This document shows positions 3,791 through 20,221 of a DNA stretch of 64,000 bases, piece by piece. The notes below the pieces were generated by a model that did not search any database, had not been told where the DNA came from, and saw only the letters and a program-made list of their open reading frames with translations. The position numbers and the translations under genes are program-made. Position 1 is the stretch's first letter, and each line of letters starts with the position of its first letter. This DNA comes from Ahrensia sp. (GTDB taxonomy: Bacteria; Pseudomonadota; Alphaproteobacteria; Rhizobiales; Rhizobiaceae): assembly GCA_028817895.1 (NCBI GenBank), contig JAPPOQ010000030.1, positions 248,001-312,000 of the forward strand, given 5' to 3'.

Positions 3791-3810
3791 ACCGCTCCCC
3801 GGGGCGATCA

Positions 3811-4548: not shown

Positions 4549-4561
4549 ACCGCGGAGCAAA

Positions 4562-5255: not shown

Positions 5256-5717
5256 ATGAGGCGTAGCGTAGCCCTGACCGCGATCGCGACGATCGGTCTG
5301 ACGGGGTCGGTGTTCGCTTCTCAAATTGCGCCGGAGAATGTGACTTTCGTGGACGACATCGAAGTTCCGATATCACTTACCGGGCAAGCGGGGGACGCGG
5401 CCAAAGGCCGTGAATGGTATGCCGGGCGCAAGTTGGGCAACTGCCTGGCGTGTCACGCGACGACCGATCTGAACGAATTGCCCTTCCACGGCGAAGTCGG
5501 TCCTGCGATGGATGGCGTAGCGGATCGCTATGAAGAGGCTCAGCTGCGGGCCATTCTGGTCAACTCCAAAAAGGTCTTTGGCGATCAGACCATCATGCCG
5601 GGCTTTTATGTCGTCAATCCCGGTGCGCGGACGGCAGGGGACTTCCAGGGGCAAACCATCATGTCCGCACAGCAGATCGAAGACGTGATCGCTTATCTGA
5701 AAACTCTCACGGAATAA
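5256..5717 (+). CDS. soxX: SoxX, monohaem cytochrome c subunit of the SoxXA complex
   Basis: A 153-residue exported cytochrome with one CXXCH site (CLACH) near residue 65 and a Met-containing TIMPGFY stretch that supplies the likely axial ligand. SoxXA couples thiosulfate to the carrier cysteine of SoxY with release of two electrons. The start at 5256 is set by GGGAGG eight bases upstream and by the signal peptide that begins there (MRRSVAL). A 118-bp gap separates it from soxW, enough for a second promoter as in Pseudaminobacter. Confidence 0.93.
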   Translation: MRRSVALTAIATIGLTGSVFASQIAPENVTFVDDIEVPISLTGQAGDAAKGREWYAGRKLGNCLACHATTDLNELPFHGEVGPAMDGVADRYEEAQLRAILVNSKKVFGDQTIMPGFYVVNPGARTAGDFQGQTIMSAQQIEDVIAYLKTLTE

Positions 5718-5752
5718 GCTGCCCGAGCGCAGCTTTGTTAGGAGATTCAAAC

Positions 5753-6205
5753 ATGTTGAACAGACGTGACCTAATCAAATACGGCTCAGCAGGTGCCGCC
5801 GTAGCGGTCTTGGGCGTGCCACAATTGGCCCTGGCAGAAACCGTGCCGACCACAGATGACCGCATCAAAGAGTTTACCGGCGGCGCGCAGATCGGCGAGG
5901 GCAAGGTTTCTCTGAGCACACCGGAAATCGCTGAGAACGGCAATACCGTACCGGTGGAAGTGTCGGTGGAAAGCCCGATGACAGCCGAGGATCACGTTGC
6001 GGAGGTGCTGATCCTCGCTGACGGAAATCCGCGCCCCGGCGTCGCCACCTTCAAGTTTACCGAAATGTCGGGGGAAGCATTCGCATCCACCCGTATTCGC
6101 CTGGCGATGACCCAGGATGTCGTGGCGGTTGCCAAAATGTCTGACGGTACATTCCAGATGGCGCGCAACACCGTAAAAGTCACCATCGGCGGCTGCGGCG
6201 GCTGA
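5753..6205 (+). CDS. soxY: SoxY, sulfur-carrier subunit of SoxYZ
   Basis: A 150-residue Tat-exported protein (leader NRRDLIK followed by a hydrophobic Ala-rich run). It ends in the carrier arm GGCGG, whose cysteine carries thiosulfate-derived intermediates between SoxXA, SoxB and SoxCD. The start at 5753 follows TTAGGAG at good spacing, and the upstream in-frame ATG at 5735 has no comparable site. SoxZ follows after 21 bp and forms the heterodimer. Confidence 0.95.
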   Translation: MLNRRDLIKYGSAGAAVAVLGVPQLALAETVPTTDDRIKEFTGGAQIGEGKVSLSTPEIAENGNTVPVEVSVESPMTAEDHVAEVLILADGNPRPGVATFKFTEMSGEAFASTRIRLAMTQDVVAVAKMSDGTFQMARNTVKVTIGGCGG

Positions 6206-6226
6206 TCAGTTTAAGGGAGCACGAAT

Positions 6227-6556
6227 ATGGCGAAACCAAAACCACGCGTGAAAGTCCCCAAAAAGGCGAAAGCCGGCGAGGTCATCACGATCAAGACGCT
6301 GATCAGCCACAAGATGGAATCGGGTCAGCGTAAGGACAAGAAAACCGGGGAGCTCATCCCTCGGCAGATCATCAACAACTTCAAGGCTGAGTTCAACGGG
6401 CAGCTTGTGTTCGAAACGGATCTGGAGCCGGCGGTGTCGTCCAATCCCTATATTCAGTTCAGCATGAAAGTGCCCGAGTCTGGTGAGGTTGTCTTCACCT
6501 GGACCGACGATGATGGCTCTGTCTACACGACGTCTAAGAAGATTGCGGTCGGCTGA
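6227..6556 (+). CDS. soxZ: SoxZ, partner subunit of the SoxYZ carrier
   Basis: A 109-residue protein with no signal peptide of its own, consistent with co-export on the Tat leader of SoxY. It begins with the lysine-rich KPRVKVPKKAKAGEVI typical of SoxZ and ends with the immunoglobulin-like strand pattern GEVVFTWTDDDGSVYTT. SoxZ forms a beta-sandwich heterodimer with SoxY and helps present the carrier cysteine. Spacing to soxY is 21 bp, with a GGGAG site before the ATG. Confidence 0.95.
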   Translation: MAKPKPRVKVPKKAKAGEVITIKTLISHKMESGQRKDKKTGELIPRQIINNFKAEFNGQLVFETDLEPAVSSNPYIQFSMKVPESGEVVFTWTDDDGSVYTTSKKIAVG

Positions 6557-6649
6557 TCAAGCAGAACGGCGCTTGAGCAGCCCATCGCATGGGCCATTGG
6601 CCAATGATGCGGGTGTAAGGGCCCGTATCTCACGGGGAGGAAAGTTGGC

Positions 6650-7516
6650 ATGAAATGTGGAGGAAAGGGCTCGCTCCGGTGGGGAGCCGGGCTGGCTCTC
6701 GCATCGCTCTTGGTGGGGGCTGGTGCGGCTTACGGAGAACCCAATGACAACAAGCTTGTGATCGATGGGCAAACCCTGACGACCGAGGCGGCAGCCCCGG
6801 AAGGAGTTGAACTCGACAAACTCTATTCGGGTTGGCGCTTTCGCAGCCCCGAAACCCAAGAGCTTCAGACTGATGATTTTGAAAACCCGGCCATGGTCGC
6901 CGTCGATCAGGGTGCCGAATTGTGGGGAACAGTTGACGGCAGCGCCGGGAAATCCTGCATGTCCTGTCACGGAGAGGCCGAGGCGTCGATGAAGGGCGTC
7001 CGTGCTGGTTACCCGAAATGGAGTGACAAGCGCGGCAAACCTCACACGCTGGAGACGCAGATCAACGAGTGTCGCACCGATCGCATGGAAGCGGATGCCT
7101 GGAAGTGGGAATCCTCTAACATGCTCGGCATGACGGCTTTTGTGGGGCTTCAGTCGCGCGGCATGCCGGTGAAGGTGCAGACTGATGGCCCTATGGCGCA
7201 GTGGCATGCCAAAGGCAAAGAGTTGTATTTCACCCGTGTGGGCCAGCTAAACATGTCCTGCGCCAACTGCCACCAGGAAAATTACGGCAAAATGATCCGA
7301 GCAGATCATCTCAGCCAGGGGCACATCAATGGATTTCCAGTCTATCGATTGAAATGGGGTGGCCTCGGTTCAAGCCATCGCCGCTTCAAGGGCTGCATGG
7401 AGAACATTCGCGCAACGCCATTCAAGCGCGGATCTGACGAGTTCGTCGCTCTCGAGCTTTATCTTGCCTCGCGAGGCGCTGGTCTGTCCGTGGAAACACC
7501 ATCCGTCAGGAACTGA
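6650..7516 (+). CDS. soxA: SoxA, dihaem cytochrome c subunit of the SoxXA complex
   Basis: A 288-residue exported cytochrome with two CXXCH sites, CMSCH at residues 103-107 and CANCH at 204-208. It also has the active-site cysteine C249 in RFKGCMENI that ligates the catalytic haem as a persulfide. This is the dihaem type of SoxA. It catalyses formation of the SoxY-thiosulfonate. A GGGGAGG site precedes the ATG. A 93-bp gap separates it from soxZ and a strong hairpin follows it. Confidence 0.95.
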   Translation: MKCGGKGSLRWGAGLALASLLVGAGAAYGEPNDNKLVIDGQTLTTEAAAPEGVELDKLYSGWRFRSPETQELQTDDFENPAMVAVDQGAELWGTVDGSAGKSCMSCHGEAEASMKGVRAGYPKWSDKRGKPHTLETQINECRTDRMEADAWKWESSNMLGMTAFVGLQSRGMPVKVQTDGPMAQWHAKGKELYFTRVGQLNMSCANCHQENYGKMIRADHLSQGHINGFPVYRLKWGGLGSSHRRFKGCMENIRATPFKRGSDEFVALELYLASRGAGLSVETPSVRN

Positions 7517-7581
7517 GGCTGGCCACTATTGCCTGAATTCGACCCTTCTGTCGGTTCCTGCAAAAGAGACTTGCGCTAGCA

Positions 7582-7618
7582 AAAAAGGGCGGACTTCTTC
7601 CGGAAGCCCGCCCTTTTT
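7582..7618 (+). terminator. Hairpin terminator between soxA and soxB
   Basis: Two 16-base arms (7582-7597 and 7603-7618) pair with one mismatch around a 5-base loop. The 3' arm ends in TTTTT and the 5' arm begins AAAAA, so it could act on both strands. It lies inside what is otherwise one run of sox genes. It is therefore either a partial terminator or attenuator that lowers soxBCD expression relative to soxXYZA, or an RNA-end protector. Confidence 0.85.
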
Positions 7619-7651
7619 GTATCCGACCTTCTCTCACTGGGAGACTTACGC

Positions 7652-9343
7652 ATGATTTCAAGACGCGACTTTTTACAATGGACCGCCGTCGCGGGCGCTT
7701 TTGCAACCGGCTATTCGGGCGGACTGACACGCGCCGCCGCCCAGCAAAAGATCACTCAGAATGATCTGCTGCGTTTCGATTCCAAAGGCACGATCACACT
7801 GCTGCACCTGACCGACATCCACGCGCAGCTAAAGCCGATTTACTTCCGCCCACCCGACACCAATATCGGCGTGGGGGCGTTTGAAGGCATCCCGCCGCAT
7901 CTCGTTGGCCAGACCTTCCTTGATCACTTTGGCATCGAGAATGGCACGATGCTCGCTTACGCGCACACCATGGTCGACTATGTCAACCTGGCACGCAGCT
8001 ATGGGAAACTGGGTGGACTGGACCGCACGGCAACGCTTGTCAAAGCCATCCGCGCGGATCGAGGCGAGGACAAGGTATTGCTGCTGGATGGCGGCGACAC
8101 GTGGCAGGGCTCTTACACATCGCTGCAAACAAACGGCCAGGACATGGTCGATTGCATGAAACTGCTGAAGCCCGACGCCATGGTCGGACATTGGGAGTTT
8201 ACCTTCGGTGCTGACCGTGTGGAAGAGATCATTGAGAACATGGGCTATCCGTTCCTCGCCAGCAACATTTTCGACAATGAATGGGACGAACCCGTTTTCG
8301 AGCACACCGCTTTCTATGAAAAGGGTGGGCACAAGGTGGCCGTAATCGGCCAGGCCATGCCCTACACGCCGATTGCCAATCCGCGATGGATGTTTCCACA
8401 ATGGTCGTTTGGCATACGCGCGGATGTGCTTCAGGCGAATGTCGATGCTGCGCGGGAAGCTGGGGCAGAAGTGGTGGTCCTGCTGTCTCACAATGGCTTC
8501 GATGTGGACCAGAAGCTCCCAACGGTGGTCAATGGTGTCGATGTCATATTGACGGGGCACACGCATGACGCCGTGCCCAAGGCCATCGAGATCGGTTCAA
8601 CCCTTGTTCTGTCCTCGGGGTCGCATGGCAAGTATCTCGGGCGTGTCGATCTTGAGGTCAAAGGCGGTAAAGTGGTGGGGCACAATTCCCATCTCATTCC
8701 TGTTCTGTCAGATGCGATCAAGCCCGACCAGGAGATGTCAACCAAGATCGACGAAGTGCGTGCGCCATATGAAGAGGAGTGCAGCCGGGTGATCGGCAAG
8801 ACCGAAAGCCTGCTCTACCGCCGCGGAAACTTCAACGGAACATGGGATGATGTCATTTGCGATGCGCTGATCGAGCAGCGCGATGCCGAACTTTCCTTCA
8901 GTCCAGGCTTCCGTTGGGGAACAACCAATTTGCCGGGGTCCGACATCACGGTCGATGATCTCTACAACCAAACGTCGATGAGCTACCCGTCGGTCTACCG
9001 CCTGGAATTTTCGGGCAGTCAGATCAAGGAGATTCTCGAAGATGTATGCGACAATCTCTTCAACAAGGACCCGTTCTTCCAGCAAGGCGGGGACATGGTT
9101 CGTGTTGGCGGCATGGGATACACATGCGCCCCCAAGGAAAGCATCGGCAATCGCATCTCCGACATGACTTTCCTGAAAACAGGCGAACCGATCGACCCCA
9201 ACCGCAACTACGTGGTTGCGGGTTGGGCTTCCGTCAATGAAGGCGTAGAAGGGCCGGCGGTCTGGGATCTTGTCGAGGCGCATATCAAGGCGCGTGGGGC
9301 ACTCAAAACCCAACCCAATCAATCCGTAAAAGTACTGCTTTGA
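7652..9343 (+). CDS. soxB: SoxB, thiosulfohydrolase
   Basis: A 563-residue Tat-exported (SRRDFLQW leader) dimanganese hydrolase of the 5'-nucleotidase/metallophosphatase family that removes sulfate from the SoxY-cysteine S-thiosulfonate. Metal-binding signatures are LTDIHAQLKP near residue 55, LDGGDTWQGS near 150, GHWE near 180 and the TGHTHD motif near 305. Length is normal for the family. It starts 33 bp after the hairpin that follows soxA. Confidence 0.96.
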   Translation: MISRRDFLQWTAVAGAFATGYSGGLTRAAAQQKITQNDLLRFDSKGTITLLHLTDIHAQLKPIYFRPPDTNIGVGAFEGIPPHLVGQTFLDHFGIENGTMLAYAHTMVDYVNLARSYGKLGGLDRTATLVKAIRADRGEDKVLLLDGGDTWQGSYTSLQTNGQDMVDCMKLLKPDAMVGHWEFTFGADRVEEIIENMGYPFLASNIFDNEWDEPVFEHTAFYEKGGHKVAVIGQAMPYTPIANPRWMFPQWSFGIRADVLQANVDAAREAGAEVVVLLSHNGFDVDQKLPTVVNGVDVILTGHTHDAVPKAIEIGSTLVLSSGSHGKYLGRVDLEVKGGKVVGHNSHLIPVLSDAIKPDQEMSTKIDEVRAPYEEECSRVIGKTESLLYRRGNFNGTWDDVICDALIEQRDAELSFSPGFRWGTTNLPGSDITVDDLYNQTSMSYPSVYRLEFSGSQIKEILEDVCDNLFNKDPFFQQGGDMVRVGGMGYTCAPKESIGNRISDMTFLKTGEPIDPNRNYVVAGWASVNEGVEGPAVWDLVEAHIKARGALKTQPNQSVKVLL

Positions 9344-9419
9344 ACCGTCGACGTTGCGCTTCGGAATTTACATTCATGAATTAGAATATATAATGATCGT
9401 CGTGGAGGAGATTTGACCT

Positions 9420-10685
9420 ATGAGCGATCTTGACAAGCCTATTTCATCCCGTCGGCTTTTTCTGAAGTCGGGGCTTGCACTGGGCGGCGCCGCGGCCGCG
9501 GGGACGGCTGCCCTGGCCAATGGCGACCCCGCCATTCTGGAGAAGAAAGACTGGAATCAGTATCCGGGCGACGGTGTTGATGCGCGTCCCTATGGCACGC
9601 CATCGGAGTTTGAAAGCCGGGTTGTCCGGCGCAGCGTTCCATGGCTGACGGCTGACCCCATCTCATCGGTGAACTTCACTCCGCTGCATGAACTTGACGG
9701 CATCATCACACCCAACGGGCTGTGTTTCGAGCGTCACCATTCAGGCATCGCCGAGATTGATCCGGCCGAACATCGGTTGATGATCAATGGTCTGGTCGAC
9801 GATGAGCTGGTTTTCACCATGGACGATCTGACGCGCTTTCCGCGCAAGAACCAGGTTAACTTTTTGGAATGCGCAGCCAATTCCGGCATGGAATGGCGCG
9901 GGGCGCAGCTCAATGGCTGTCAGTTCACACACGGCATGATCCACAATGTCATGTATACCGGCGTACCGTTGAAAACACTGCTGGAGGAAGCCGGCCTGAA
10001 GGGCAATGCCAAATGGCTGTTGCCGGAAGGTGCGGACGCATCCGGCATGACGCGGTCCGTCCCGCTTGAAAAAGCGATGGATGACTGCCTGGTTGCCTGG
10101 AAAATGAACGGCGAGGCTCTGCGACCTGAACAAGGCTATCCGTTGCGTCTGGTCGTTCCGGGCTGGGAAGGCAATATGTGGGTCAAATGGCTGCGCCGTA
10201 TCGAAGTTGGCGACATGCCCTGGCACCACAGAGAAGAGACGTCGAAATATACCGATCTCATGGCCAATGGTAAGGCGCGCCGCTTTACCTGGGAGATGGA
10301 CGTAAAGTCGGTCATCACGAACCCTTCACCTCAGGCCACGCTCAAGCACGATAAGGGCTTCACGGTTCTGACCGGCGTGGCATGGTCGGGACGGGGAACC
10401 GTTAAGCGAGTCGATGTCTCCCTTGACGGCGGCATGAACTGGCAGGCGGCGAGGATTGATGGACCGTCGCTCGATAAGTCCATGCACCGTTTCTACTATG
10501 AGTTTGATTGGGACGGCTCACCGCTCTTGCTGCAGTCGAGAGCCATCGATTCGGAAGGCTTTGTCCAACCGACGAAGGATGCACTTCGAGCAGTGCGCGG
10601 GGAAAACTCGATCTATCACAACAACGGCATCCAGACCTGGCATGTCAAGAATAACGGGACGGTTGAAAATGTCGAAGTTTCCTAA
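9420..10685 (+). CDS. soxC: SoxC, molybdopterin subunit of sulfane dehydrogenase SoxCD
   Basis: A 421-residue molybdoprotein of the sulfite-oxidase family with a Tat leader (SRRLFLKS). The molybdenum-ligating cysteine is C151 in LECAANSG. The C-terminal immunoglobulin-like dimerisation domain (VDVSLDGGMNWQAA region) is complete. With SoxD it oxidises the sulfane sulfur left on SoxY, which is why organisms with SoxCD do not store sulfur. A 76-bp AT-rich gap precedes it, and the ATG follows GGAGGAG. Its 3' end overlaps soxD by 17 bases. Confidence 0.95.
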   Translation: MSDLDKPISSRRLFLKSGLALGGAAAAGTAALANGDPAILEKKDWNQYPGDGVDARPYGTPSEFESRVVRRSVPWLTADPISSVNFTPLHELDGIITPNGLCFERHHSGIAEIDPAEHRLMINGLVDDELVFTMDDLTRFPRKNQVNFLECAANSGMEWRGAQLNGCQFTHGMIHNVMYTGVPLKTLLEEAGLKGNAKWLLPEGADASGMTRSVPLEKAMDDCLVAWKMNGEALRPEQGYPLRLVVPGWEGNMWVKWLRRIEVGDMPWHHREETSKYTDLMANGKARRFTWEMDVKSVITNPSPQATLKHDKGFTVLTGVAWSGRGTVKRVDVSLDGGMNWQAARIDGPSLDKSMHRFYYEFDWDGSPLLLQSRAIDSEGFVQPTKDALRAVRGENSIYHNNGIQTWHVKNNGTVENVEVS

Positions 10686-11310
10686 GCTGGTGGCGCTTGG
10701 CCTACTGGCCTCTTTTGCAGCAACCACCGCGCTGGCTGACAAATATGATCTTGGTCGCAAGGCTACCCCGGAAGAGGTGGCGGCGTGGAATATCGATATC
10801 CGGCCTGACGGTCAGGGCCTTCCTGAAGGGCGCGGCACCGTTGAGCAGGGTGAAGAAATTTGGGCGGACCAGTGCGCCTCCTGTCATGGCGATTTCGGTG
10901 AAGCGGTTGACCGTTGGCCGGTCATTGCAGGCGGCTTCGACACGCTGGCCAGCGATGACCCAATCAAAACTGTCGGTTCCTACTGGCCTTACCTTTCAAC
11001 CGTGTGGGACTATGTAAATCGTGCCATGCCGTTTACTGAGGCCCGCTCGCTCGAACCTGATCAGGTTTATGCCCTGACGGCCTATATCATGAGCATCAAC
11101 GATCTGGTCGACAGCGACTTTGAGCTGTCGCATGAAAACTTCGCCGAACAAAAACTCCCCAATGAGAGCGGGTTTTTCGACGATGATCGACTGTCATCGC
11201 CGATCTTCGACAAGTCTGAACCTTGCATGAGCAACTGCAAGCCCAAGGCCGAAGTGGTGATGCGCGCGCGCATCCTCGATGTGACCCCGGATGACGAAAC
11301 GGACAATTAG
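10669..11310 (+). CDS. soxD: SoxD, monohaem cytochrome c subunit of SoxCD
   Basis: A 213-residue exported cytochrome with a single CXXCH (CASCH, residues 69-73). It begins inside the soxC 3' end, giving a 17-base overlap. Paracoccus SoxD is about 380 residues with two haems; here the second haem domain is absent and the C-terminus holds only a CMSNC motif. Work on Paracoccus showed the haem-2 domain is dispensable for activity, so this short form is probably functional. It is the last gene of the sox run, and the next gene converges on it 58 bp away. Confidence 0.9.
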   Translation: MSKFPKLVALGLLASFAATTALADKYDLGRKATPEEVAAWNIDIRPDGQGLPEGRGTVEQGEEIWADQCASCHGDFGEAVDRWPVIAGGFDTLASDDPIKTVGSYWPYLSTVWDYVNRAMPFTEARSLEPDQVYALTAYIMSINDLVDSDFELSHENFAEQKLPNESGFFDDDRLSSPIFDKSEPCMSNCKPKAEVVMRARILDVTPDDETDN

Positions 11311-11368
11311 GCCAATTCCATTGATCGGCCTGCGATGCCGCTTCCACGTTCGATAAGGCGACCGGTGC

Positions 11369-12547
11369 TCAGTTCAGCAGGACCGGCATGTTTATCGGTC
11401 CCCGAAAGCCGAATCCGCGCCAGATCACGGCATCTGGATCGGGAAGGCTCATTTTCGGAAATCGGTCGAACAGGATTGGCAGCATGACGTCGCCAACCGC
11501 GCGTCGTGCCATATGTGTGCCCTGACAAAAATGCGGCCCATTGCCAAAGCTCTGATGGGCCACCTTTTCGCGATAGACATTGAAGACTTCTCCATCCTCG
11601 ACGAGATCTTCATCGCGGTTGGCGCTGGCTTGAATCGTCATCACCGTGTCGCCCTTGGGAATGCGGCATCCCCGAATTTCCGTGTCCTCGGTCGCACGTC
11701 GGGACGAAGCTGAAATTGGCGCAACCCATCGCACGCCTTCTTCAAAAGCCTTGTCCCAATCGCCATTGCGCTTCACCTCTTCAAGCTGGTCGGGGTTCGT
11801 CAAAAGACCGAACAGGATCGTGTTCAAGGCATCGCGTGGCTCATTAATGCCACCCCCGATGGCAATTTTGATGTTGGCGTAGATCTGCTTTTCAGGAATG
11901 GGATCGGGTGCGTTCAGCATAACGGAGAGTGCAGAATGGCCCGGCTCGGTCCTGTGTCGGTCCTGAAGGCGGTCGAACAGCGCGTGCTTCTCTTTGTTCG
12001 CCTTGTCAGCACGGGCGAAAGGCTCGTCGCGCCAGCCAAAATTTCCCGCACCATCGATCAGCGCTTGTGACCAGCGCTGCATGTCTTCGTCGCTCGCCTC
12101 ATCAATTCCCAGCATGATTGCGAGTCCGCGCGCGCAATAGGGCCCGTTGAGCGCGGGGAACAGATCAACGACTTCACCACGCGGCAACCGCGCGACATAG
12201 CCTTCGGCGACCCGCATATAGGCCGGCACCCATTCGTCTCGGATGACACGTGGGGCGAATGCTGGAGCCATGGCATTGCGTTCGCGCAAGTGCTCCTCAC
12301 CGTCCTTGCGCATCAGCGTATGCGCCCAAAACGCCCGCTTCATCGGTGTGTTTGGATCGTCCGAACTGAACAGTTGCGGATTGTTTTTGACGTATCTGGT
12401 ATCTTCAGCCTTGGTTAGAAACGTCCGACCTGCAGCCTTGACCCGGCAGACCGGGGCTTGCGCGCGCAATTGACGATAGATCGGAAACGGTGACTGATCG
12501 AGCTGCTCAAGCGTGATGGACTCGTTGAGGGGAGCGAGGTCAGCCAT
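11369..12547 (-). CDS. Cytochrome P450 with atypical I-helix
   Basis: A soluble bacterial P450 of about 392 residues. The haem-thiolate loop is FGNGPHFCQGTHMAR and the ExxR motif is EGVR. The I-helix reads AIGGGINEPRDAL, so the usual acid-Thr pair (AGxDT) is missing and replaced by N-E-P. No ferredoxin or reductase gene is adjacent. The start at 12547 overlaps the stop of the upstream amidohydrolase as ATGGCTGA; an in-frame ATG at 12559 is also possible. Its neighbours suggest a role in aromatic or CoA-linked acid breakdown, but I cannot name a substrate. Confidence 0.85.
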   Translation of the reverse strand: MADLAPLNESITLEQLDQSPFPIYRQLRAQAPVCRVKAAGRTFLTKAEDTRYVKNNPQLFSSDDPNTPMKRAFWAHTLMRKDGEEHLRERNAMAPAFAPRVIRDEWVPAYMRVAEGYVARLPRGEVVDLFPALNGPYCARGLAIMLGIDEASDEDMQRWSQALIDGAGNFGWRDEPFARADKANKEKHALFDRLQDRHRTEPGHSALSVMLNAPDPIPEKQIYANIKIAIGGGINEPRDALNTILFGLLTNPDQLEEVKRNGDWDKAFEEGVRWVAPISASSRRATEDTEIRGCRIPKGDTVMTIQASANRDEDLVEDGEVFNVYREKVAHQSFGNGPHFCQGTHMARRAVGDVMLPILFDRFPKMSLPDPDAVIWRGFGFRGPINMPVLLN

Positions 12548-13430
12548 CGGTTTCGCCAAGCAGCCTTAATGCGTTCTCCTTCAGAATAAGCGGACGCACC
12601 TCATCCTTGAAGGGAGCGTTTTCAAAATCTGCAAGCCAGCGATCCGGCGTTATTGCGGGCCAGTCGGAGCCAAACAGCATTTTTTTCTTCAAGATTGAAT
12701 TGGCGTAGCGGATAAAGGCGTCCGGGAAATATTTTGGGCTCCAACCGCTCATGTCATAGTAGACGTTCGGCTTATGCTGGCACACGGCCAGACCCTCCTC
12801 CGTCCAGGGAAAACTCGGATGGGCAAGTATTATCGGCATGTCAGGAAAGTCGACCGCCACATCGTCCAGGTGCATGGGATTGGAGTATTTCAACCGCATC
12901 CCCATTCCGCCGCGCATGCCCGATCCAACGCCCGTCTGGCCCGTGTGAAACAGTGTGATCACACTCTCTTGCGCGCAGGCTTCCAGCACGGTGTAGCAGG
13001 CGTCGCGATCATTTGGGAAGAAACCCTGCATCGTTGGGTGAAACTTGAACCCCCGAACACCGAAATCGCGAACCAGTCTCTTGACTTCGCGCGCTCCGGC
13101 CTTGCCCTTGTGTGGATCGATGGAAGCGAACGGAATGAGGATGTCATCATTCTCGGCGCAAAGCCCGGCGACTTCTTCATTGGAATAGCGCTTGAAACCG
13201 GTTTCGCGCTCAGCATCAACCGGGAATATCACAGCCGCAATGTTACGCTCGCGATAATAGGTTGCCGTGTCCTGCACGGTTGGCAACATACCTTTCGCCT
13301 CGGCGGGATTCTTGAAATAGGCTGCCATACCAGCCTGAAACTCATTGTAGCCGTCATCTCGACCGTGATTGCACGGTTCTTCAGCATGAGTGTGGAAATC
13401 AATCGCCCTGACTGAACTGAAATCTACCAT
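12540..13430 (-). CDS. Amidohydrolase-2 family metal-dependent hydrolase or decarboxylase
   Basis: A 296-residue TIM-barrel protein of the amidohydrolase_2 (ACMSD-like) family. It shows DFHTHAE at the N-terminus, a mid-barrel KFHPTMQ, AHPSFPW and the C-terminal FGSDWP with the metal-binding Asp. The family includes hydroxybenzoate, resorcylate and aminocarboxymuconate decarboxylases and some hydrolases. It is translationally coupled to the P450 gene. It is divergent from the enoyl-CoA hydratase, so both may be controlled from the operator region at 13.5 kb. Confidence 0.8.
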   Translation of the reverse strand: MVDFSSVRAIDFHTHAEEPCNHGRDDGYNEFQAGMAAYFKNPAEAKGMLPTVQDTATYYRERNIAAVIFPVDAERETGFKRYSNEEVAGLCAENDDILIPFASIDPHKGKAGAREVKRLVRDFGVRGFKFHPTMQGFFPNDRDACYTVLEACAQESVITLFHTGQTGVGSGMRGGMGMRLKYSNPMHLDDVAVDFPDMPIILAHPSFPWTEEGLAVCQHKPNVYYDMSGWSPKYFPDAFIRYANSILKKKMLFGSDWPAITPDRWLADFENAPFKDEVRPLILKENALRLLGETDG

Positions 13431-13499
13431 TGCATCCTCCCGGGTCGATCCAACGAGTTGTGCCGAACGGCAATCCCAAATTTGCTATACAGGAAAACC

Positions 13500-13517
13500 G
13501 TTATCCTATACAACAAT
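13500..13517. promoter_or_regulatory. Operator-like motif GTTAT-N7-AACAAT upstream of the hydratase gene
   Basis: The sequence GTTAT, seven bases, AACAAT recurs with identical spacing at 18334-18351 in front of the MarR gene. Here it lies 27 bases before the enoyl-CoA hydratase start. A CTATACA sequence also occurs twice with a 21-base period (13485 and 13506), about two helical turns. I infer a binding site for the MarR-family regulator encoded at 17829-18293. Confidence 0.5.
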
Positions 13518-13543
13518 ATTGCAGACCGAGACGAGGCGAGCTT

Positions 13544-14332
13544 ATGGCAGACGAGTCAGTTCACACCGACGTGACGCGGGTCGAGATAGACGGCGACATC
13601 GCCACCTTGATCTTCGACCGTCCTGAAAAGCGCAACGCCATGAATGATCAGCTTATCGCGGAACTGGATGCGTTTTTCTCAGAGCCACCCGAAGGTGTCA
13701 GCAGCGTTGTCCTCCGCGGAGAAGGCGGGCATTTCTGCTCGGGCCTTGATCTGGCCGAACATGAGCATCGTGACCCCATTGACGGCGTTTATCATTCTCG
13801 CAACTGGCATCGCGTCGCCGATTTGATCGAGTTTGGCAGACTGCCTGTCGTGTCCGTGCTGACCGGTGCGGTTATTGGCGGTGGTCTGGAAATCGCCGCG
13901 GCGACGCATGTGCGCATCGCTGAACCGGATGTGCGGTTTCAACTGCCCGAAGGGCGACGTGGCATTTTTGTGGGCGGCGGCGCGACGGTGCGGGTTGGCA
14001 AGGTTCTTGGCGCGGATCGCATGCGGGAGATGATGCTCACCGGGCGCAGCTATGGCGCGGAGGACGGCCTCGCGATGGGATTGGCTCATTACAGCGTGGC
14101 AGCCGGTGAAGGGCTGGCACTGGCAAAGAAGCTGGCACGCAAAATGGCCGACAACGCGCCTTTCTCGAATTATCTTATGATGCAGGCGATCCCGCGTATC
14201 GCGGACATGTCCCCATCAGAAGGTCTGTTCACCGAAAGCCTTGCTGCGGCAATGTCGCAAACATCCGACGGAGCCAAGGAAGGCTTGCGCGCCTTTCTCG
14301 AAAAGAGGCCGCCCAAGTTCAGGACCCGTTGA
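13544..14332 (+). CDS. Enoyl-CoA hydratase/isomerase (crotonase) family protein
   Basis: A 262-residue crotonase. The oxyanion-hole segments are HFCSGLDLAEH near residue 65 and GAVIGGGLEIAAATHVRIAEP near 110. The Glu in QLPEGRRGIF marks one usual catalytic position. Crotonases in this setting hydrate or cleave CoA thioesters of aromatic acids such as feruloyl-CoA, but this sequence alone does not fix the substrate. The start follows GAGGCGAG. It is divergent from the amidohydrolase, and the next gene downstream is a truncated flavin hydroxylase. Confidence 0.85.
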   Translation: MADESVHTDVTRVEIDGDIATLIFDRPEKRNAMNDQLIAELDAFFSEPPEGVSSVVLRGEGGHFCSGLDLAEHEHRDPIDGVYHSRNWHRVADLIEFGRLPVVSVLTGAVIGGGLEIAAATHVRIAEPDVRFQLPEGRRGIFVGGGATVRVGKVLGADRMREMMLTGRSYGAEDGLAMGLAHYSVAAGEGLALAKKLARKMADNAPFSNYLMMQAIPRIADMSPSEGLFTESLAAAMSQTSDGAKEGLRAFLEKRPPKFRTR

Positions 14333-14351
14333 TTTTGGCTGGAATACGCCC

Positions 14352-14636
14352 ATGCAGTTTCACGATAAAGGTTTTCGCGCCGGTGACCCCGAGCTGAAAG
14401 CGATTGCGCCGGACCTTTCGGGCGATCTGGATGTTCTCATTGTCGGAGCCGGGCCAGCAGGTCTCACGCTTGCAGCCTATCTTTCGCACTTCCCGAACAT
14501 CAAAACGGCGATCCTGGAGCGCAGATCAGGACCTCTGGAAAAGGGACAGGCCGACGGCGTGTCTTGTCGCTCGATGGAGATGTTTCAGAAGTTTGGGTTT
14601 GCGGACCGCGTGCGGCTTGGACTTGCCCAGAATTAG
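14352..14636 (+). pseudogene. N-terminal fragment of a FAD-dependent aromatic hydroxylase
   Basis: Ninety-four residues matching the start of phenol 2-monooxygenase / 3-hydroxybenzoate 4-monooxygenase type flavoproteins: the FAD-binding VLIVGAGPAGLTLAAYL and the family-typical DGVSCRSMEMFQKFGF. Full-length members have about 550-650 residues. The frame ends at a stop at 14634 and the rest of the enzyme is not found downstream. It starts 19 bp after the hydratase gene, so it was the next gene of that operon. I read it as broken by arrival of the 14.6-17.6 kb insert. Confidence 0.8.
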
Positions 14637-14714
14637 TGGAGAGGCTTTCACTCTGTGATGGCCGTATCGGCCTCGCACAATGCCGGCGTTGCGTCGGGCA
14701 ACGCAGCTGTCGAT

Positions 14715-15089
14715 ATGAAGAACCGGGATACATTCGCGTCTACAATCGGCCACATCACCTGGTTGGCTTCGATGTCAACCCCGCACAAGGATAAGCCGAT
14801 CTCGTGGTTGGAAGAGGTTGTGTTTCCGGCACTGCTGCTGCGGCAGTTCAAACTCTATTTCAAAGAAAAGCAGCCGGTGGCGCTGATTGTCTACGGCCTC
14901 CTGTCGGAAGAGCAAAAGGCAGCTTTCGAAGCGAGCGGGGAACTGCCGCATCTCGACCGCTGGCGAAGCGGAGAGAATGTTGTTGTGTTTGAGTGTATCA
15001 GCCCGTTTGCGGAGCGAGAGAGCATGATTGCGGAGTTTCTGCGGGATACGAAAAGTAGAGTGAAAAAGTCGGGTAACGGCGGTGAGTGA
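14715..15089 (+). CDS. HlyC-like toxin-activating lysine acyltransferase
   Basis: A 124-residue protein that lines up without gaps with HlyC over the first 95 residues. GHITWLASMSTPH matches HlyC GHVSWLWASSPLH, then FPALLLRQFKLY, PVALIVYGLLS and a SPF motif matching IAPFG. The essential His23 of HlyC is H24 here; the essential Asp92 is Glu at position 93. HlyC-family enzymes move a fatty acyl chain from acyl carrier protein to lysines of an RTX protoxin. The start was set by the HlyC alignment; an upstream in-frame ATG at 14658 is possible. It lacks about 40 C-terminal residues of HlyC. No intact RTX toxin is in the window. Confidence 0.75.
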   Translation: MKNRDTFASTIGHITWLASMSTPHKDKPISWLEEVVFPALLLRQFKLYFKEKQPVALIVYGLLSEEQKAAFEASGELPHLDRWRSGENVVVFECISPFAERESMIAEFLRDTKSRVKKSGNGGE

Positions 15090-15236
15090 CAGCCCGCCTG
15101 AGTTGAAGACTCCGCGGCAAATTGCATGAACGCGGTTGTTGTATTCCGGACACGGTGAGCGGTGTTCCGTCTTTTGACACGGACTCCGGTTGGACGGACG
15201 CGGGAAATATGGTTAACGGGGCACGAGGGTGTCAGC

Positions 15237-15437
15237 AGACAGAGTGGGTACCTGATCGCGGCAGCGGTCTTCGCTCTGTTGTCTGATAAACATTGAGCAA
15301 CTTGGGAGATGACTAGCGAGTTGCCGCATCTCGACCAATGGAGAAACGGAGAAGAGGTGGTGTTATTCGAGTGTTTCGGCGTTAGGGACGAGAATTTGAC
15401 TGTCGCCGGATTTATGAAATCTGTGATTTCCAGGTAA
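15237..15437 (+). pseudogene. Decayed second copy of the HlyC-like gene (C-terminal part)
   Basis: In one frame the translation runs GYLIAAAVFALLSDKH, stop at 15294, then ATWEMTSELPHLDQWRNGEE and VVLFECFG, ending at 15437. It aligns with no gap to the C-terminal half of the gene just upstream (LLSEEQKAAF, SGELPHLDRW, VVVFECIS). The in-frame TGA and the missing N-terminal half make it a pseudogene. Like the intact copy it has Glu where HlyC has the catalytic Asp. The rest of the 15090-15452 gap shows nothing I recognise. Confidence 0.72.
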
Positions 15438-15452
15438 TTTTAAGAGCGGAGT

Positions 15453-15884
15453 ATGACGAAAACTATTGGCAGAACCGATTTTGGGAGATTTTTGATACTC
15501 TTGGTTTCCGTCCTGGCATCTTGCGCTGTTGCCCCCTCAGACGGTGGTCAAGGCCAACTCCAAACCCGCGAGGAAACCAAAGCGCTCGCGTTCAAGGCAT
15601 GGAGCGAAGCAAATAAGTCAGGCAGACGGGCGGCAAGTATTCTTTCCAAAAAAGGATATAGATGTGGAACACACAAGAGCGAGCCTAGTGTAAGATGTAT
15701 TAAGGTGGATTGCCCAATCAATCTGAGAGATGAATATGCAGCGTACTACATTTTTTTTAGGAGAGATCAAATATTTTCTGCTGAAACTATAATAACTCGA
15801 GGGAAATGCCCTGGCAAAAATGACAAATATGGAATTGAAATTCGATCTTCTGTTCCGAATGAATCCTATCAAGAGGTAGAATAA
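15453..15884 (+). CDS. Small exported lipoprotein, unknown function
   Basis: A 143-residue protein with a lipoprotein signal (hydrophobic run ending VLASC, lipid-modified Cys 24). The mature part has four cysteines (GYRCGT, VRCIKVDC, RGKCPG) that could form two disulfides. The second half of the gene is clearly AT-rich, with T and A runs, unlike the GC-rich neighbours, a sign of transfer. It ends one base before the start of the Hint-domain gene, so the two are coupled. An immunity or chaperone role for its neighbour is possible but is inference only. I recognise no family. Confidence 0.7.
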   Translation: MTKTIGRTDFGRFLILLVSVLASCAVAPSDGGQGQLQTREETKALAFKAWSEANKSGRRAASILSKKGYRCGTHKSEPSVRCIKVDCPINLRDEYAAYYIFFRRDQIFSAETIITRGKCPGKNDKYGIEIRSSVPNESYQEVE

Positions 15885-15885
15885 C

Positions 15886-17679
15886 TTGTCTGAAGCCAAC
15901 ATATTTGTAAGAGAATACGATATCGTCGGCCTTTCGGCCAATCTTCCTGGAAGTTATTCTCATCTCGGAATTGTCGTGCAAAAATCCTCAGGTGAGATTG
16001 CTGAGTTCAATTTCGGGTCTTTTACAAGCCAAGGGTTTCGGTCAGTTGGTCTACCTTTCGATCCATCGGATTGGCTTGGTGGTTTGGAGGGGCCTTTGCC
16101 GGTGGATCCCGGTTATCAGCCTCTGCCCTCTCGATATATTTTGGCCGGTACCGTTACTGACTTGTTTGCAGAGCAGGTCATTGTGCAGGCTAATTCCCTA
16201 ATCGATGAGCTGGAGAGCGGTGGAGTGGGCTACGCTCCCGTTCCAGGGTGGCCAATATTTGCGAATGCTAATTCAAACTCAGCGGCTGCGCACCTGTTGC
16301 GAATTGCAGGCATTGATCCGACTGCTCTGGATTATGCTGGAAACCCAGTCGGTTTCTACGCCGATCTGAATGCATCTAGGTTCAATCTGAAAGGATCGAC
16401 CGAACGATTCGTCGAAATTAAGAAAGCACTTGGGCAAGAATGCTTCCCTGCTGGGACCTCGGTTCTCACCTCTACTGGTGAGGTTCCTATTGAGTCGATC
16501 ACACCGGGCCAGATGGTTCTTGGCCCCGATCCAGCCGTTCTTGGCGGGTTCGGACCGCTGGTGGAGTCGCGGGTGGTGCGGTTGTTGCCTTCGGTGACAC
16601 AGGAATGGCTGGAGGTGACGGCGAAGCCGGTTGCGGGTGGTGCGGAGCAGGCGTTTACGGTGACGCCGGGGCATCATTATCTCAACGAGCTTCGGCAATT
16701 CGAGGAGATCCACTCGATCATCGCGCGTGGCGGACAGATCGTCACATGGGACGGCAAGTTATGCGAGGCCACCGCTGAGCGCGTCGTCTACGGAGCCGAT
16801 ACCGCGCATCTGTTCGAAGAAACCGAGATCGTGCGCTACACCACACAGGGCGGGCTGGCGTGCGAACCCTATGTCGAGCGCGGCTGGAAGACGTATAACT
16901 TCGAGGTTGAGGGCATCCACACCTATGTGGCCGCCGGCATGCGGGTGCACAACGAATCCGCCTGGAGCTTTGTCAAACCGGGCGACGGAATTCCGGTGTC
17001 GTGGGAAGACACCAACGGCGACGGCAGGGACGATGTCGTCGTGCTGGTGACAGACACCAGGGCTACGCGGATCATGTTCGCGGACAATGGCGACCACAGC
17101 ACCGCCATCCGCCAGATCACGACGCAGGAGAACGATCAGTTCGGCAGCGACGAGTATTACGTCTACACCGAAAAGGTTGATATCGGCGCTGACGGTGTTC
17201 CACTGGGACCAGTGCAACATCTATTCGGCCGCGGTGTGGGCGAGGCTGCGGCCAAGGCGCTGACGCCGTTTCTTTCCCAGGCGATCATTGGCGACGATGC
17301 GAGTGTTTTCGAACAGATCGCAACCGAAACCGTGATCGACACGATCACCGGTAATATCGGCGAGTTTATTGGATTGTCTCTTCACCACTCGATCCTCGCC
17401 AAAACCGGTGCAGGCGAGGTGTCGGTCCTCAACAATGTGTTCGACGATTTCGGCACGGATTTCGGCGTCAATCTGGCGCAGAATTCCGTCTCCGTCAGAC
17501 GAACCGCTTCCTGCTTGAAATCGTCGGTGAATGTTCTGCGTTCTCGTTTGCCCATCGGGTCCTCCTGTTGCGTTCAACGCTATCAGACAGTCCCTCCACT
17601 TTTCACGGACAAGCCCAATAGTCCAAATAGTCGGCAAGGGTTGGCAGGTGGTCCGGCAAAGGCTCAGTCTGCATCATGA
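15886..17679 (+). CDS. Papain-like/Hint domain protein, C-terminus lost at an IS remnant
   Basis: Starts at TTG directly after the lipoprotein stop, behind GAGGT. Residues 1-185 contain SHLGIVV (His 26) and NSNSAAAHLLRIAGI (129-143), which resemble circularly permuted papain-like proteins of the DUF3750 type with Ser at the usual Cys position. Residues 186-356 form a Hint domain, beginning CFPAGTSVLTSTGEVPIESI and ending THYV/VHN-like (IHTYVAAGMRVHN). A Ca-binding-like DTNGDGRDD follows at about 375, then an Ala/Gly-rich helical region seen near Hint domains of alphaproteobacterial RTX-type proteins. From about residue 534 the frame reads antisense IS and ligase sequence, so the native C-terminus is gone. 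Probably secreted and self-cleaving originally. Confidence 0.7.
   Translation: MSEANIFVREYDIVGLSANLPGSYSHLGIVVQKSSGEIAEFNFGSFTSQGFRSVGLPFDPSDWLGGLEGPLPVDPGYQPLPSRYILAGTVTDLFAEQVIVQANSLIDELESGGVGYAPVPGWPIFANANSNSAAAHLLRIAGIDPTALDYAGNPVGFYADLNASRFNLKGSTERFVEIKKALGQECFPAGTSVLTSTGEVPIESITPGQMVLGPDPAVLGGFGPLVESRVVRLLPSVTQEWLEVTAKPVAGGAEQAFTVTPGHHYLNELRQFEEIHSIIARGGQIVTWDGKLCEATAERVVYGADTAHLFEETEIVRYTTQGGLACEPYVERGWKTYNFEVEGIHTYVAAGMRVHNESAWSFVKPGDGIPVSWEDTNGDGRDDVVVLVTDTRATRIMFADNGDHSTAIRQITTQENDQFGSDEYYVYTEKVDIGADGVPLGPVQHLFGRGVGEAAAKALTPFLSQAIIGDDASVFEQIATETVIDTITGNIGEFIGLSLHHSILAKTGAGEVSVLNNVFDDFGTDFGVNLAQNSVSVRRTASCLKSSVNVLRSRLPIGSSCCVQRYQTVPPLFTDKPNSPNSRQGLAGGPAKAQSAS
17487..17611 (-). mobile_element. 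IS3-family insertion sequence remnant (one end plus start of orfA)
   Basis: On the minus strand the sequence starts at about 17611 with TGTCCGTGAAAAGTGGAGGG, a typical IS3-family terminal sequence. After a GGAGG site an ATG at 17555 opens a frame MGKRERRTFTDDFKQEAVRL, the N-terminus of an IS3/IS911 OrfA transposase. The match stops near 17487, where the Hint-protein frame takes over. Only about 125 bp of the element is left, so it cannot move by itself. It marks the right boundary of the 14.6-17.6 kb insert. Confidence 0.8.
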
Positions 17680-17828: not shown

Positions 17829-18293
17829 TTATCCTTCACCGCGCATTCGTATTTTCTTGAGCAGCTTCAATAGCGTCTCCTTTTCCTTTGCCGTCATGAC
17901 ATCAAGGAGCGCATCTTCATGCGCACGCACGGCTTTCAGCGCTTCGACACAGGCAAACCGGCCTTCTTGGGTCGGGACAAGAGCCTGGACGCGCCTGTCT
18001 CCGGGAACAGCCACTCGATTCAGAAATCCGCGCTGCTCCAACTCGTCGACGATCGAAACCAGACCGGATCGCTCGATCCCCATCATGCGAGCCAACTCGC
18101 TTTGGGTGATGTTGGGAAACTCCACCGCCAGGGACAGGGCGGAAAACACTCGCGCAGACATGCCATCATCACCCAACGCCTCCCGAAAATCGGCGCGCAC
18201 GATGACATAGGCGCGCTTGAGATTGTAGCCGATCAGATCTTCAAGATCCGATGCCACCAACTTCCAATTCTGATTTTCGGCATGTCGGGCCAT
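17829..18293 (-). CDS. MarR-family transcriptional regulator
   Basis: A 154-residue winged-helix regulator. It shows TQSELARMMGIERSGLVSIV as the recognition helix region and a DRRVQALVPTQEG wing, both standard for MarR proteins. Regulators of this type control hydroxycinnamate and hydroxybenzoate CoA pathways and are released by the aryl-CoA thioester. The remnant ligase gene downstream and the shared GTTAT-N7-AACAAT motif in front of both this gene and the hydratase support such a role here. Divergent from the DUF3237 gene. Confidence 0.85.
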   Translation of the reverse strand: MARHAENQNWKLVASDLEDLIGYNLKRAYVIVRADFREALGDDGMSARVFSALSLAVEFPNITQSELARMMGIERSGLVSIVDELEQRGFLNRVAVPGDRRVQALVPTQEGRFACVEALKAVRAHEDALLDVMTAKEKETLLKLLKKIRMRGEG

Positions 18294-18333
18294 ATCAACC
18301 TCCGGCTTGACGCCTCCATCTTATCCGCAGATT

Positions 18334-18351
18334 GTTATGCTGGTAAACAAT
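18334..18351. promoter_or_regulatory. Operator-like motif GTTAT-N7-AACAAT between marR and the DUF3237 gene
   Basis: Extended form ATTGTT, nine bases, AACAAT is an inverted repeat, as expected for a MarR dimer. It lies 40 bases before the marR start and 16 bases before the DUF3237 start, so it could govern both directions. The same core with the same spacing is at 13500-13517. Confidence 0.55.
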
Positions 18352-18367
18352 CAGAGCAAGCATCGCC

Positions 18368-18832
18368 GTGGATTTGCCCATCCCGCAACTCGACCATGTC
18401 TGCACCCTTTTTGTCGAGCTTGCCCCCATTCGTGAAATGGGCATCGGTCGCGCTGGTCAAAGACGCATCATCCCGATCACGGGTGGCCAGGTGGAAGGTT
18501 CGCGAATCGCTGGACGCATTCTCAATCTTGGTGCTGACTGGCAGACGGTGTTTGAGAGCGGTATGGCGGAGTTGAACACGCGCTACGCTATGGAAACGCA
18601 TGATGGCGCGGTAATCGAGGTCGTCAACTTTGGATATCGTCATGGGCCGTCAGATGTCATGGAAGCCGTCGCGCGGGGTGAGGATGTTGACCCATCGCGC
18701 TACTACATGCGCACCCATGCCCGTTTGGAAACCGGCGACACACGTTATGAGTGGGTGAACCGCACTTTGTTTGTGGGTGTCGGCGCCAGACAGAAACAAT
18801 CCGTCAAGATCGACCTCTACGCTATTGGGTGA
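18368..18832 (+). CDS. DUF3237 family protein
   Basis: A 154-residue protein of the DUF3237 family, small beta-barrel-like proteins of unknown chemistry that often sit in aromatic and aliphatic acid catabolic clusters. Seen here are the family-typical opening (LDHVCTLFVELAP), a GGQVEGSRIAGRILNLGADW segment and the C-terminal YEWVNRTLFVGVG. It starts at GTG and shares the operator region with marR. I infer it belongs to the same catabolic regulon. Confidence 0.75.
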   Translation: MDLPIPQLDHVCTLFVELAPIREMGIGRAGQRRIIPITGGQVEGSRIAGRILNLGADWQTVFESGMAELNTRYAMETHDGAVIEVVNFGYRHGPSDVMEAVARGEDVDPSRYYMRTHARLETGDTRYEWVNRTLFVGVGARQKQSVKIDLYAIG

Positions 18833-18940
18833 GGGACAGCAGAATAGTCTTTTGGGTGCCGACTTTCGAGCAAGTTTGGCCCAGCCATCATCGAACTCTG
18901 GTCCGCCCCGAAAATGTGTAAGCAACCGCCGCGATTGGCT

Positions 18941-20221
18941 TCAATTCACGCTCACGCGGGGTAAGTCGGATTGATGAGGGACCTTCATTGCATCGGCCTT
19001 ACCGCGCGGCACGAAAAGTTCACATTCATGCGCGACCCCGTTCAGCCGGAAGAGGCCCGCCGATGTCCAACGTTCCGGTTCCGTCTCGGTAATTTCGCGC
19101 GAGACCAGTGCTTTTGAATCGACCGATTTGGTGAGTGCTTCTATGCGTGTTGCTTCATTGATCGTCGGGCCGATCACAGAGAAGGATAGCCGCTGATCAA
19201 CGCCAATATTGCCGAATGTGAGAACGCCCGCATTGATCGCAATTCCGAAATCAAAAGGTTGCAAGCCTTCCGACTTGCGCCGCTCATCGGATCTTTCCAG
19301 ACAATCGAGGGCCATCTCCATGGCCATCGTGGCGCAGCGGATCGCCTGATGCTTTCCGTCCTCGCCTTCATAAGGAAAGATCGCCAACACGGCATCACCA
19401 ATGAAGTCCAGAACCTCGCCGCCCAACTCTATCGCAGGCGCGGCCGTGCATGAAAAATACTCATTGAGCAGCTTGATGAAGTCTTCCGCCGCCATTGTAT
19501 CAGCCAATGCGGTGGAATTGCGCATGTCGGAATACCAGACCACCGCTTCGGTCTGTTGGCCGTCACCGAGCTTTATTTTGCCGTCCAAGACCTGCAAGCC
19601 GGCCTGACGGCCCAGATAGGTCTCGGTAATGTTTGCGGAGATACGCCGTTGAATGACGGTTTTCACCGCGACAGCAAAACGACGCTGGATCTGCTTGAGC
19701 GCTACGATGTCATCGTCGGTGAAGCCTCCGGGACGGTCACAAGCCCATGTCAGAATGAGCCCGCTGACCCGCCTCGAATATTTCGTTTCCGGCAGCCCTC
19801 GCTCCAGCTTCTTGCCATCGAAGCTCGTGATGACGATGAGGTAATCAGTCATCCCTTCATCGATCATGTCCTGGAGAATATCGAAGTCGACCATCTTGTT
19901 TGGGCCGTCGAGATTGCGGCGCATCTCGGCGACACCGTTCTCAAACATGTAAGCCATCGGGCTTCTCTGCCAGGATTCAGAAACATCATCCTGATGGCGA
20001 AATTGCTCAAATTCGATCTCCTTGCCGCTCTTCCAGAGGATGGTCTCAGCGCCAAACAGAGGGTGCAAAGTCGGCCAAGTCAGGCGTGCACGCGCGATAG
20101 GAACTCCGATCCCGTAAAGTCGGTGACAAAGATTCTCGAACATTTCCACGATATCGGGTTCGGACAAGGCCTGATCGACCAGCCATTCACCGACATCATT
20201 GACAAGCGTTGCACGACTCAT
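18941..20221 (-). CDS. Class III adenylate/guanylate cyclase with N-terminal sensory region
   Basis: A 426-residue cytoplasmic protein. The C-terminal half is a class III cyclase catalytic domain: the first metal-binding Asp in WYSDMRNSTAL, the second in LDFIGDAVLAIFP, and the transition-state Asn and Arg in INEATRIEAL. The N-terminal ~200 residues resemble the GAF-like region found before such domains in rhizobia, with no membrane segment. Rhizobial genomes carry many such cyclases of mostly unknown input. It stands alone between the DUF3237 gene and the putrescine transporter. Confidence 0.88.
   Translation of the reverse strand: MSRATLVNDVGEWLVDQALSEPDIVEMFENLCHRLYGIGVPIARARLTWPTLHPLFGAETILWKSGKEIEFEQFRHQDDVSESWQRSPMAYMFENGVAEMRRNLDGPNKMVDFDILQDMIDEGMTDYLIVITSFDGKKLERGLPETKYSRRVSGLILTWACDRPGGFTDDDIVALKQIQRRFAVAVKTVIQRRISANITETYLGRQAGLQVLDGKIKLGDGQQTEAVVWYSDMRNSTALADTMAAEDFIKLLNEYFSCTAAPAIELGGEVLDFIGDAVLAIFPYEGEDGKHQAIRCATMAMEMALDCLERSDERRKSEGLQPFDFGIAINAGVLTFGNIGVDQRLSFSVIGPTINEATRIEALTKSVDSKALVSREITETEPERWTSAGLFRLNGVAHECELFVPRGKADAMKVPHQSDLPRVSVN

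Follow-up and report, generated by a model that had tools for sequence, protein, structure and literature searches.

A 64,000-nucleotide stretch of an Ahrensia sp. genome (contig JAPPOQ010000030.1, positions 248,001 to 312,000; hereafter the window) carries four parts in the same direction: a gene for an HlyC-like lysine acyltransferase, a repeat of the HlyC end, a lipoprotein gene and a gene with a Hint domain that starts with TTG and has 597 codons (Table 1). On the basis of sequence comparison, we consider that these genes are probably a toxin-immunity cassette in decay, belonging to a polymorphic toxin system that is arranged as a mirror image of the known ones and exported by a type I system. 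Fuller relatives of the locus occur in other alphaproteobacteria.

Full-length relatives and their variable N-termini

In the relatives (collected loci are given by L numbers), a variable N-terminal domain is followed by the Hint domain, a carrier region and RTX repeats. The encoded proteins measure 1517 amino acids (aa) in L019, where the frame is cut by the contig end, 1359 aa in L020 and 2112 aa in L021, and others exceed 3000 aa. RTX repeats follow the carrier in all three (by Pfam in L019 and L020), and a pattern search found at least two RTX units in 24 of the 52 frames. The remaining frames are either interrupted by the end of a contig or short, such as the Hint frames of L024 and L025 and the 388-aa frame of L004. 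Among the 52 rows, from which L026 was left out, L003, L053 and the window excerpt duplicate other rows by Hint sequence; L047 and L048, which have no Hint domain, stand outside the Hint counts.

The front regions differ from each other while the Hint domains align. Indeed, only 13 of the 1326 pairs of fronts were similar at E≤0.01, in a set of 52 that includes fragments and contig-end pieces (e.g., L039, L044, and L050) and one pair (L002/L041) overlapping the Hint domain itself. The front of L023 is of the TseH type (E 6.9e-19), and that of L007 matches Ntox44 weakly (E 0.0099, under the cut-off). By eye, we recognized HExxH motifs in L008, L031, and L042, a PIN-like sequence in L024 and a lysozyme-like sequence in L021, and Pfam left all five unmatched. 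A variable toxin-like domain on a conserved carrier is the arrangement seen in polymorphic toxin systems.

Cassettes also occur in arrays. In L024, a single HlyC gene heads a row of three Hint genes, all of them preceded by a small gene, and a fourth front with a Hint fragment comes after these. Another array, L157, belongs to the genome of the window (contig 18, 86000-98000) and includes a GNAT-like gene, a small gene, an 866-aa Hint gene and a 622-aa gene. The last two share 565 bp of carrier DNA at 99.8% identity, and nothing in common was detected in their fronts; of the frames at 5243-7840, 8030-9895, and 10241-11404, the third has 62 bp in common with them at 90%. Ahead of the lipoprotein gene of the window, the repeat of the HlyC end is likely a recombination footprint, pointing to an exchange of cassettes between hlyC and the Hint domain.

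An HlyC-like or GNAT-like acyltransferase gene in most loci

The first-pass annotation of the window had pointed to an HlyC-like neighbour. This gene indeed exceeds the Pfam cut-off (HlyC, PF02794, E 4.7e-20, 72.2 bits against a cut-off of 25), and a second HlyC 3′ fragment is present, both upstream of the lipoprotein gene. Against ApxC (4whn), the protein gives a phmmer E value of 2.8e-5, with the His conserved and a Glu at the position of the ApxC Asp, these being the residues, the active-site Asp included, that we take to be catalytic in HlyC. A passage of the RTX review PMC3034196 names His and Ser for the HlyC acyltransferases.

The DNA reaches far enough upstream for 34 Hint genes, and an acyltransferase gene was found before 24 of them: it was HlyC-like in nine cases and GNAT-like in 15, with none having both and ten having neither. 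Three of these ten belong to the L024 array, with its one HlyC at the head. The 34 are Hint matches at 1e-25 or stronger with at least 840 bp upstream (39 passed the E-value), and the HlyC, GNAT-like and Hint calls in the counts come from hidden Markov models (HMMs) built from the collected loci, whose 110 acyltransferase frames include the same gene from overlapping loci. When three of the GNAT-like proteins were scanned against Pfam PF00583, one was over the cut-off (E 4.6e-5), one was below it (E 0.0016) and one was unmatched. An HlyC-like gene lies upstream in L007, L009, L010, L018, L019, L020, L024, L031, L042, L049, and the window, and more weakly in L050.

The annotation had also asked whether full-length versions carry RTX repeats and always have an HlyC-like neighbour: the repeats are there, but HlyC is not constant (9/34, against 15/34 with a GNAT-like gene), and as a marker of every Hint locus it was rejected. 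At the genome level Hint and HlyC are associated: of 385 sampled genomes of the class, 31 had HlyC and nine had a Hint match at E≤1e-12, and HlyC occurred in six of the nine Hint-positive genomes vs 25 of the 376 others (Fisher p 1.2e-5). The genome of the window is part of this sample; elsewhere, most Hint matches reach no further than the first two thirds of the domain.

In one further region, L100, GNAT-like, HlyC, type I ABC and HlyD matches follow one another (828-1388, 1379-1888, 2078-4204, and 4140-5630). In L100 and in L089, where a GNAT-like gene also lies beside HlyC, no Hint gene was found within the region examined.

The small gene before the Hint gene

A small open reading frame (ORF) directly precedes the Hint gene in 32 of the 34 loci, and in 26 it encodes a membrane segment (by a plain hydropathy window) or a lipobox. 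At random same-strand positions used as a control, an ORF was found at 353 of 1360 (26%) and a membrane segment or lipobox at 74; at antisense boundaries, an ORF was found at 4 of 34. The 32 still count L051, where transposase-like frames occupy the small-gene slot before the Hint gene (8509-9644).

In the window, the small gene encodes a protein of 143 aa with a hydrophobic signal region and a lipobox-like ASC. As annotated, it is coupled to the long gene by one base, a single C between its TAA and the TTG of the ORF at 15886-17679 (597 aa), and it is AT-rich, with a guanine-cytosine (GC) content of 0.433; the N-terminal part of the Hint gene has 0.492 and the whole window 0.575. Its cysteine motif, G[FYW]xC-x10-C[VIL]xxxC, is shared among 44 proteins of this slot only with the small genes before two Sinorhizobium papain-like domains. 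It occurs in 10 of 9072 ORFs, all of them copies or members of the window and Sinorhizobium small genes, and in 0 of 300000 shuffles; it was defined after both sets of small genes had been inspected. In L047, one Sinorhizobium plasmid region, five frames carry the motif (9493-9975, 12384-12968, 13440-14009, 15075-15626, and 18128-18673), a set that looks like an immunity-gene array. In L163, small membrane- or signal-bearing frames are duplicated before the Hint-RTX gene (4279-5052, 5376-6161, 6427-7338, and 7323-8246) and are possibly another immunity array.

Other searches with the lipoprotein returned little. Only chance-level matches to it were found in plasmids, its AlphaFold model is of low confidence (predicted local distance difference test, pLDDT, 52.4), and PADLOC gave no match for four proteins. 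A Pfam RELT match (E 0.0064, below the cut-off) was regarded as chance.

The small genes vary as much as the front domains do, and their co-variation with the type of toxin domain is weakly supported. For the small genes of the window, L047, and L048 there is weak profile support besides the motif, with a rank of 14 that does not favour co-variation. The pairwise alignment of the window lipoprotein with the Sinorhizobium small genes was not significant. In four other tested pairs with related fronts the small genes were not alike, which gives co-variation no support.

These four unlike pairs would also fit another explanation, in which the full-length products bind Ca at the cell surface or outside the cell (adhesin-, S-layer- or biofilm-like) and have diversified fronts trimmed by Hint, and the small proteins are their chaperones or anchors. 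Coherently with it, the N-termini of L005, L022, L034, and L036 appear by eye beta-rich or Gly-rich and without an enzyme motif, and the RTX review reports many non-toxic roles of RTX proteins (PMC3034196). The TseH-type domain and the weak Ntox44 match, the HExxH and PIN-like fronts recognized by eye, and the cassette arrays argue against it, and a general chaperone would not be expected to vary as the fronts do. We consider this explanation rather unlikely.

Evidence for the proposed type I export

Type I export of the toxin is inferred because the relatives carry RTX repeats and type I genes lie near some of the loci. An ABC gene lies directly downstream of 2 of the 16 testable Hint genes (L042, and L051, where it is so named in its record). 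ABC or HlyD matches (E<1e-20) occur in 7 of 36 HlyC regions, which reach little upstream, and some of them are perhaps other ABC exporters; ABC and/or HlyD matches are also present in L158, L159, L164, and L165. The window's genome holds other RTX proteins, and no transporter over the HlyB cut-off was found in it.

The Hint domain, the carrier and the truncation of the window gene

The Hint domain annotated at residues 186-356, ending in HN, is supported by its catalytic residues: Cys 186, the TPGH box (TxxH) and the terminal HN (355-356) are invariant across 13 aligned relatives, window included. The profile of this alignment has as its best PDB match the bacterial intein-like (BIL) domain 2lwy (E 2e-10), followed by PI-MtuI intein entries from 1.3e-9. 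The window protein alone gave only sub-threshold Hint matches in Pfam (Hint_2, E 0.0012; PT-HINT, E 0.089). The residue after HN is Glu in the window, and none of the 13 has Cys, Ser or Thr directly after HN; from intein chemistry, cleavage is therefore expected rather than splicing, and the Hint domain of the window would cleave itself.

Downstream, residues 357-537 are the beginning of a carrier found also in L019 and L020; by phmmer, the part of the window protein that is covered extends over residues 160-537 for L019, 183-537 for L020, and 181-504 for L021. The EF-hand-like loop announced here by the annotation is partly borne out: the sequence DTNGDGRDD is present at about residues 375-383, and similar DxDGD/DxNGD loops are visible by eye in L019 and L020, but the Pfam support is only a weak FG-GAP match below the cut-off.

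The similarity to the full-length relatives ends at residue 537, corresponding to about position 17495 of the window. In the last ~60 codons, the reverse strand reads MGKRERRTFTDDFKQEAVRL, the start of a transposase-like orfA; over 39 bp, the sequence is 87% identical to a transposase gene of the IS3 family (E 4e-3), and L015 matches the IS3-type relic region at 71%. Since the frame runs antisense through an IS3-type orfA from about residue 537, the gene is truncated, and the possibility that the last 60 residues belong to the Hint family was discarded. The window copy itself has no RTX repeats, and its carrier end and RTX part are gone beyond the relic. The locus had been annotated as remains of a secreted system, an interpretation that is partly supported: the carrier breaks off at an IS3-type relic, and the relatives show the missing parts. 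With the relic in place of the remaining carrier and the RTX repeats, the window copy could hardly be exported in the manner of its relatives.

Alternatively, the window gene could be a functional short toxin-Hint protein, that is an orphan cassette and not a remnant. Its open frame and intact Hint residues, and the short Hint frames without RTX repeats in L024, L025, and L004, are compatible with this. However, the homology stops at residue 537 and gives way to antisense transposase-like sequence, and no RTX partner remains beside the acyltransferase gene, which makes a functional short protein unlikely.

The N-terminal domain of the window gene

The front of the window protein had been described as a permuted papain-like domain with Ser at the Cys position. 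The Ser is confirmed as a family feature; the papain-like character is based on the motif, and the fold was not confirmed. Residues H26, Y116, N129-S130-N131, and G142 are invariant in eight aligned sequences, and the interpretation of S130 as the decayed Cys of a Cys enzyme was rejected, as Ser is present in all eight. The AlphaFold model of the domain has a mean pLDDT of 50.6, and Foldseek found no match for it at E≤0.001, so that the weaker matches were disregarded. Furthermore, Pfam gave no match to the domain, the TseH model (PF25218) included, its profile retrieved nothing from the PDB, and no relatives were confirmed in viral contigs. Two loci with weak matches in the first N-terminal search (L055 and L056) were dropped, as the matches sit in unrelated frames.

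Relatives of this domain are found in Sinorhizobium plasmids (L047 and L048; 40-42% over 159 residues), with no Hint domain downstream. In L048, the papain-like domain heads a 2775-aa frame with a type I ABC gene behind it. L047 contains further partial papain-like frames at 18648-19317. In alignment A9, H26 and S130 of the window line up with the His and the Cys of the TseH-type front of L023; A10 and A11 do not superpose the Cys on NSNS. A9 was the alignment used, although L046 is misaligned at the His there; A6, A7, and A11 misplaced motifs.

A wider NSNSV family, mostly with RGGP, comprises L130, L131, L133, L134, and L137, with RTX repeats in L131 and L137. Its members are probably remote relatives of the front domain in the window.

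The front would act as a Ser/His papain-like hydrolase in the periplasm. Its target, either peptidoglycan or a lipid bond, is our guess, based on the putative export of the lipoprotein and on the TseH-type cousin.

Proposed mechanism

In the fuller relatives the genes stand in this order: an acyltransferase (HlyC-like or GNAT-like, sometimes none), a variable small exported or membrane protein, which would confer immunity, and the large protein. The acyltransferase would modify, and so prime, the carrier; the RTX end would direct export through a type I system; and the carrier would contact the target cell. The Hint domain would then cut, releasing the toxin at the front of the protein, while a periplasmic or membrane immunity protein would shield sibling cells. 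In the window, the lipoprotein would be the immunity protein to the putative Ser/His papain-like hydrolase.

An RTX cytotoxin aimed at host cells, with its effectors at the N-terminus as in CyaA or MARTX and with self-protection irrelevant, would account for the HlyC association and for the layout, the CyaA effector also preceding an acylated RTX carrier, but it is very unlikely: in L019 (cut by the contig end) and L020, Pfam detected RTX repeats, Hint-type matches and one further weak match in the front of L019, and no pore-forming RTX N-terminal domain family at E≤0.1; a toxin of the CyaA type would not require a cognate exported protein immediately ahead of its toxin end, where 32 of 34 loci have a small ORF; and TseH is, by its Pfam name, a type VI secretion system (T6SS) effector family.

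More tentatively, the mirror-image polymorphic toxin system proposed here may represent an undescribed delivery class of "front-loaded" type I-exported toxins, with an upstream immunity gene, a Hint domain freeing the N-terminal toxin, interchangeable priming by HlyC or GNAT, and a papain-like variant with a Ser nucleophile. By analogy with Hedgehog, the toxin would possibly be freed in this case as an activated thioester, open to hydrolysis or to transfer to a nucleophile. If the proposed system is real, it would join acyl-activated RTX export and interbacterial polymorphic toxins, fields so far separate, and would assign a role to many large alphaproteobacterial proteins annotated as "Hint domain-containing" or "calcium-binding". 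Toxin and immunity genes would become predictable by position alone (toxin first in the protein, immunity gene before it), and the GNAT family would offer a candidate for toxin acylation beside HlyC.

Position of the locus in the window

The features are listed in Table 1. A phenol 2-monooxygenase gene is broken off just before the HlyC gene, in a neighbourhood that resembles aromatic degradation. Its NF006144 match (6.3e-33) starts at residue 38 of the ORF at 14241-14636 and covers profile positions 1-94 of 637; the HlyC-lipoprotein-Hint locus seems to have replaced the remainder of the gene.

Table 1. Features of the locus, in window coordinates
Feature	Coordinates	Strand	Basis or details
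HlyC-like lysine acyltransferase gene (slot 1)	14655..15089	+	144 aa, GTG start; Pfam HlyC PF02794
41-residue repeat of the HlyC C-terminal end	15312..15437	+	Local protein score 100 over 41 residues, and matching DNA
Lipoprotein/exported Cys-containing protein (slot 2), proposed immunity protein	15453..15884	+	Signal region, lipobox-like ASC
Variable N-terminal domain, ~residues 1-185, proposed toxin, H26 and NSNS (S130)	15886..16440	+	Relatives L047, L048
Bacterial intein-like (Hint) domain at residues 186-356, proposed to cleave itself	16441..16953	+	13-sequence alignment, 2lwy profile match
Start of conserved carrier with DxNGDxxxD loop	16954..17496	+	phmmer overlap with L019, L020, L021
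IS3-type relic (orfA start)	17497..17640	-	Outer limits approximate; firm match 17512-17550
Phenol 2-monooxygenase gene start, left edge of inserted locus	14352..14636	+	NCBIfam NF006144

Comparison with known systems

Outside subscription papers, and among the matches listed, no paper describes the combination by its title or the start of its abstract. The elements of the locus resemble several known systems. BIL domains stand beside Ca-binding repeats in alphaproteobacteria. The Hint domain resembles them in its best PDB profile match and in the lack of Cys, Ser or Thr after HN; unlike them, it lies here within a toxin-immunity-acyltransferase locus, as we interpret it.

CyaA carries its effector at the N-terminus. 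With the HlyCABD, CyaA and MARTX toxins the locus has in common an HlyC-family acyltransferase and RTX repeats (PMC3034196), and it differs from them in the Hint domain, the variable N-termini, the small gene before the toxin end and, in 15 of 34 cases, a GNAT-like gene where HlyC would otherwise stand. Hint does not occur in the passages of that review. The lipocone paper (PMC12419801) places Min-Wnt domains N-terminal to RTX-like repeats, suggesting export by the type I secretion system (T1SS); the toxin domain before the repeats is similar, whereas its passages on these proteins mention no linkage to Hint, HlyC or GNAT. The T6SS effector TseH (PF25218) is matched by the front of L023, but the window has Ser where L023 has Cys, and the Pfam TseH model does not match it.

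Further parallels concern the pretoxin-HINT polymorphic toxins. Zhang et al. 2012 (PMC3482391) treat HINT in polymorphic toxins, and one passage links it with the type II, V and VII secretion systems (T2SS, T5SS, and T7SS) and TcdB/TcaC, never with T6SS or PVC. In the first 300,000 characters of that paper, neither "T1SS" nor "type I secretion" is used, and "Type I system" appears once, for RTX toxins as an example. As in those toxins, the putative toxin domain here is exchangeable, HINT sits between it and the carrier, and a small gene is the neighbour; unlike in them, the putative toxin is N-terminal and the small gene upstream. We would assign the locus to the polymorphic toxin systems, with toxicity as the presumed defining feature, in a new variant.

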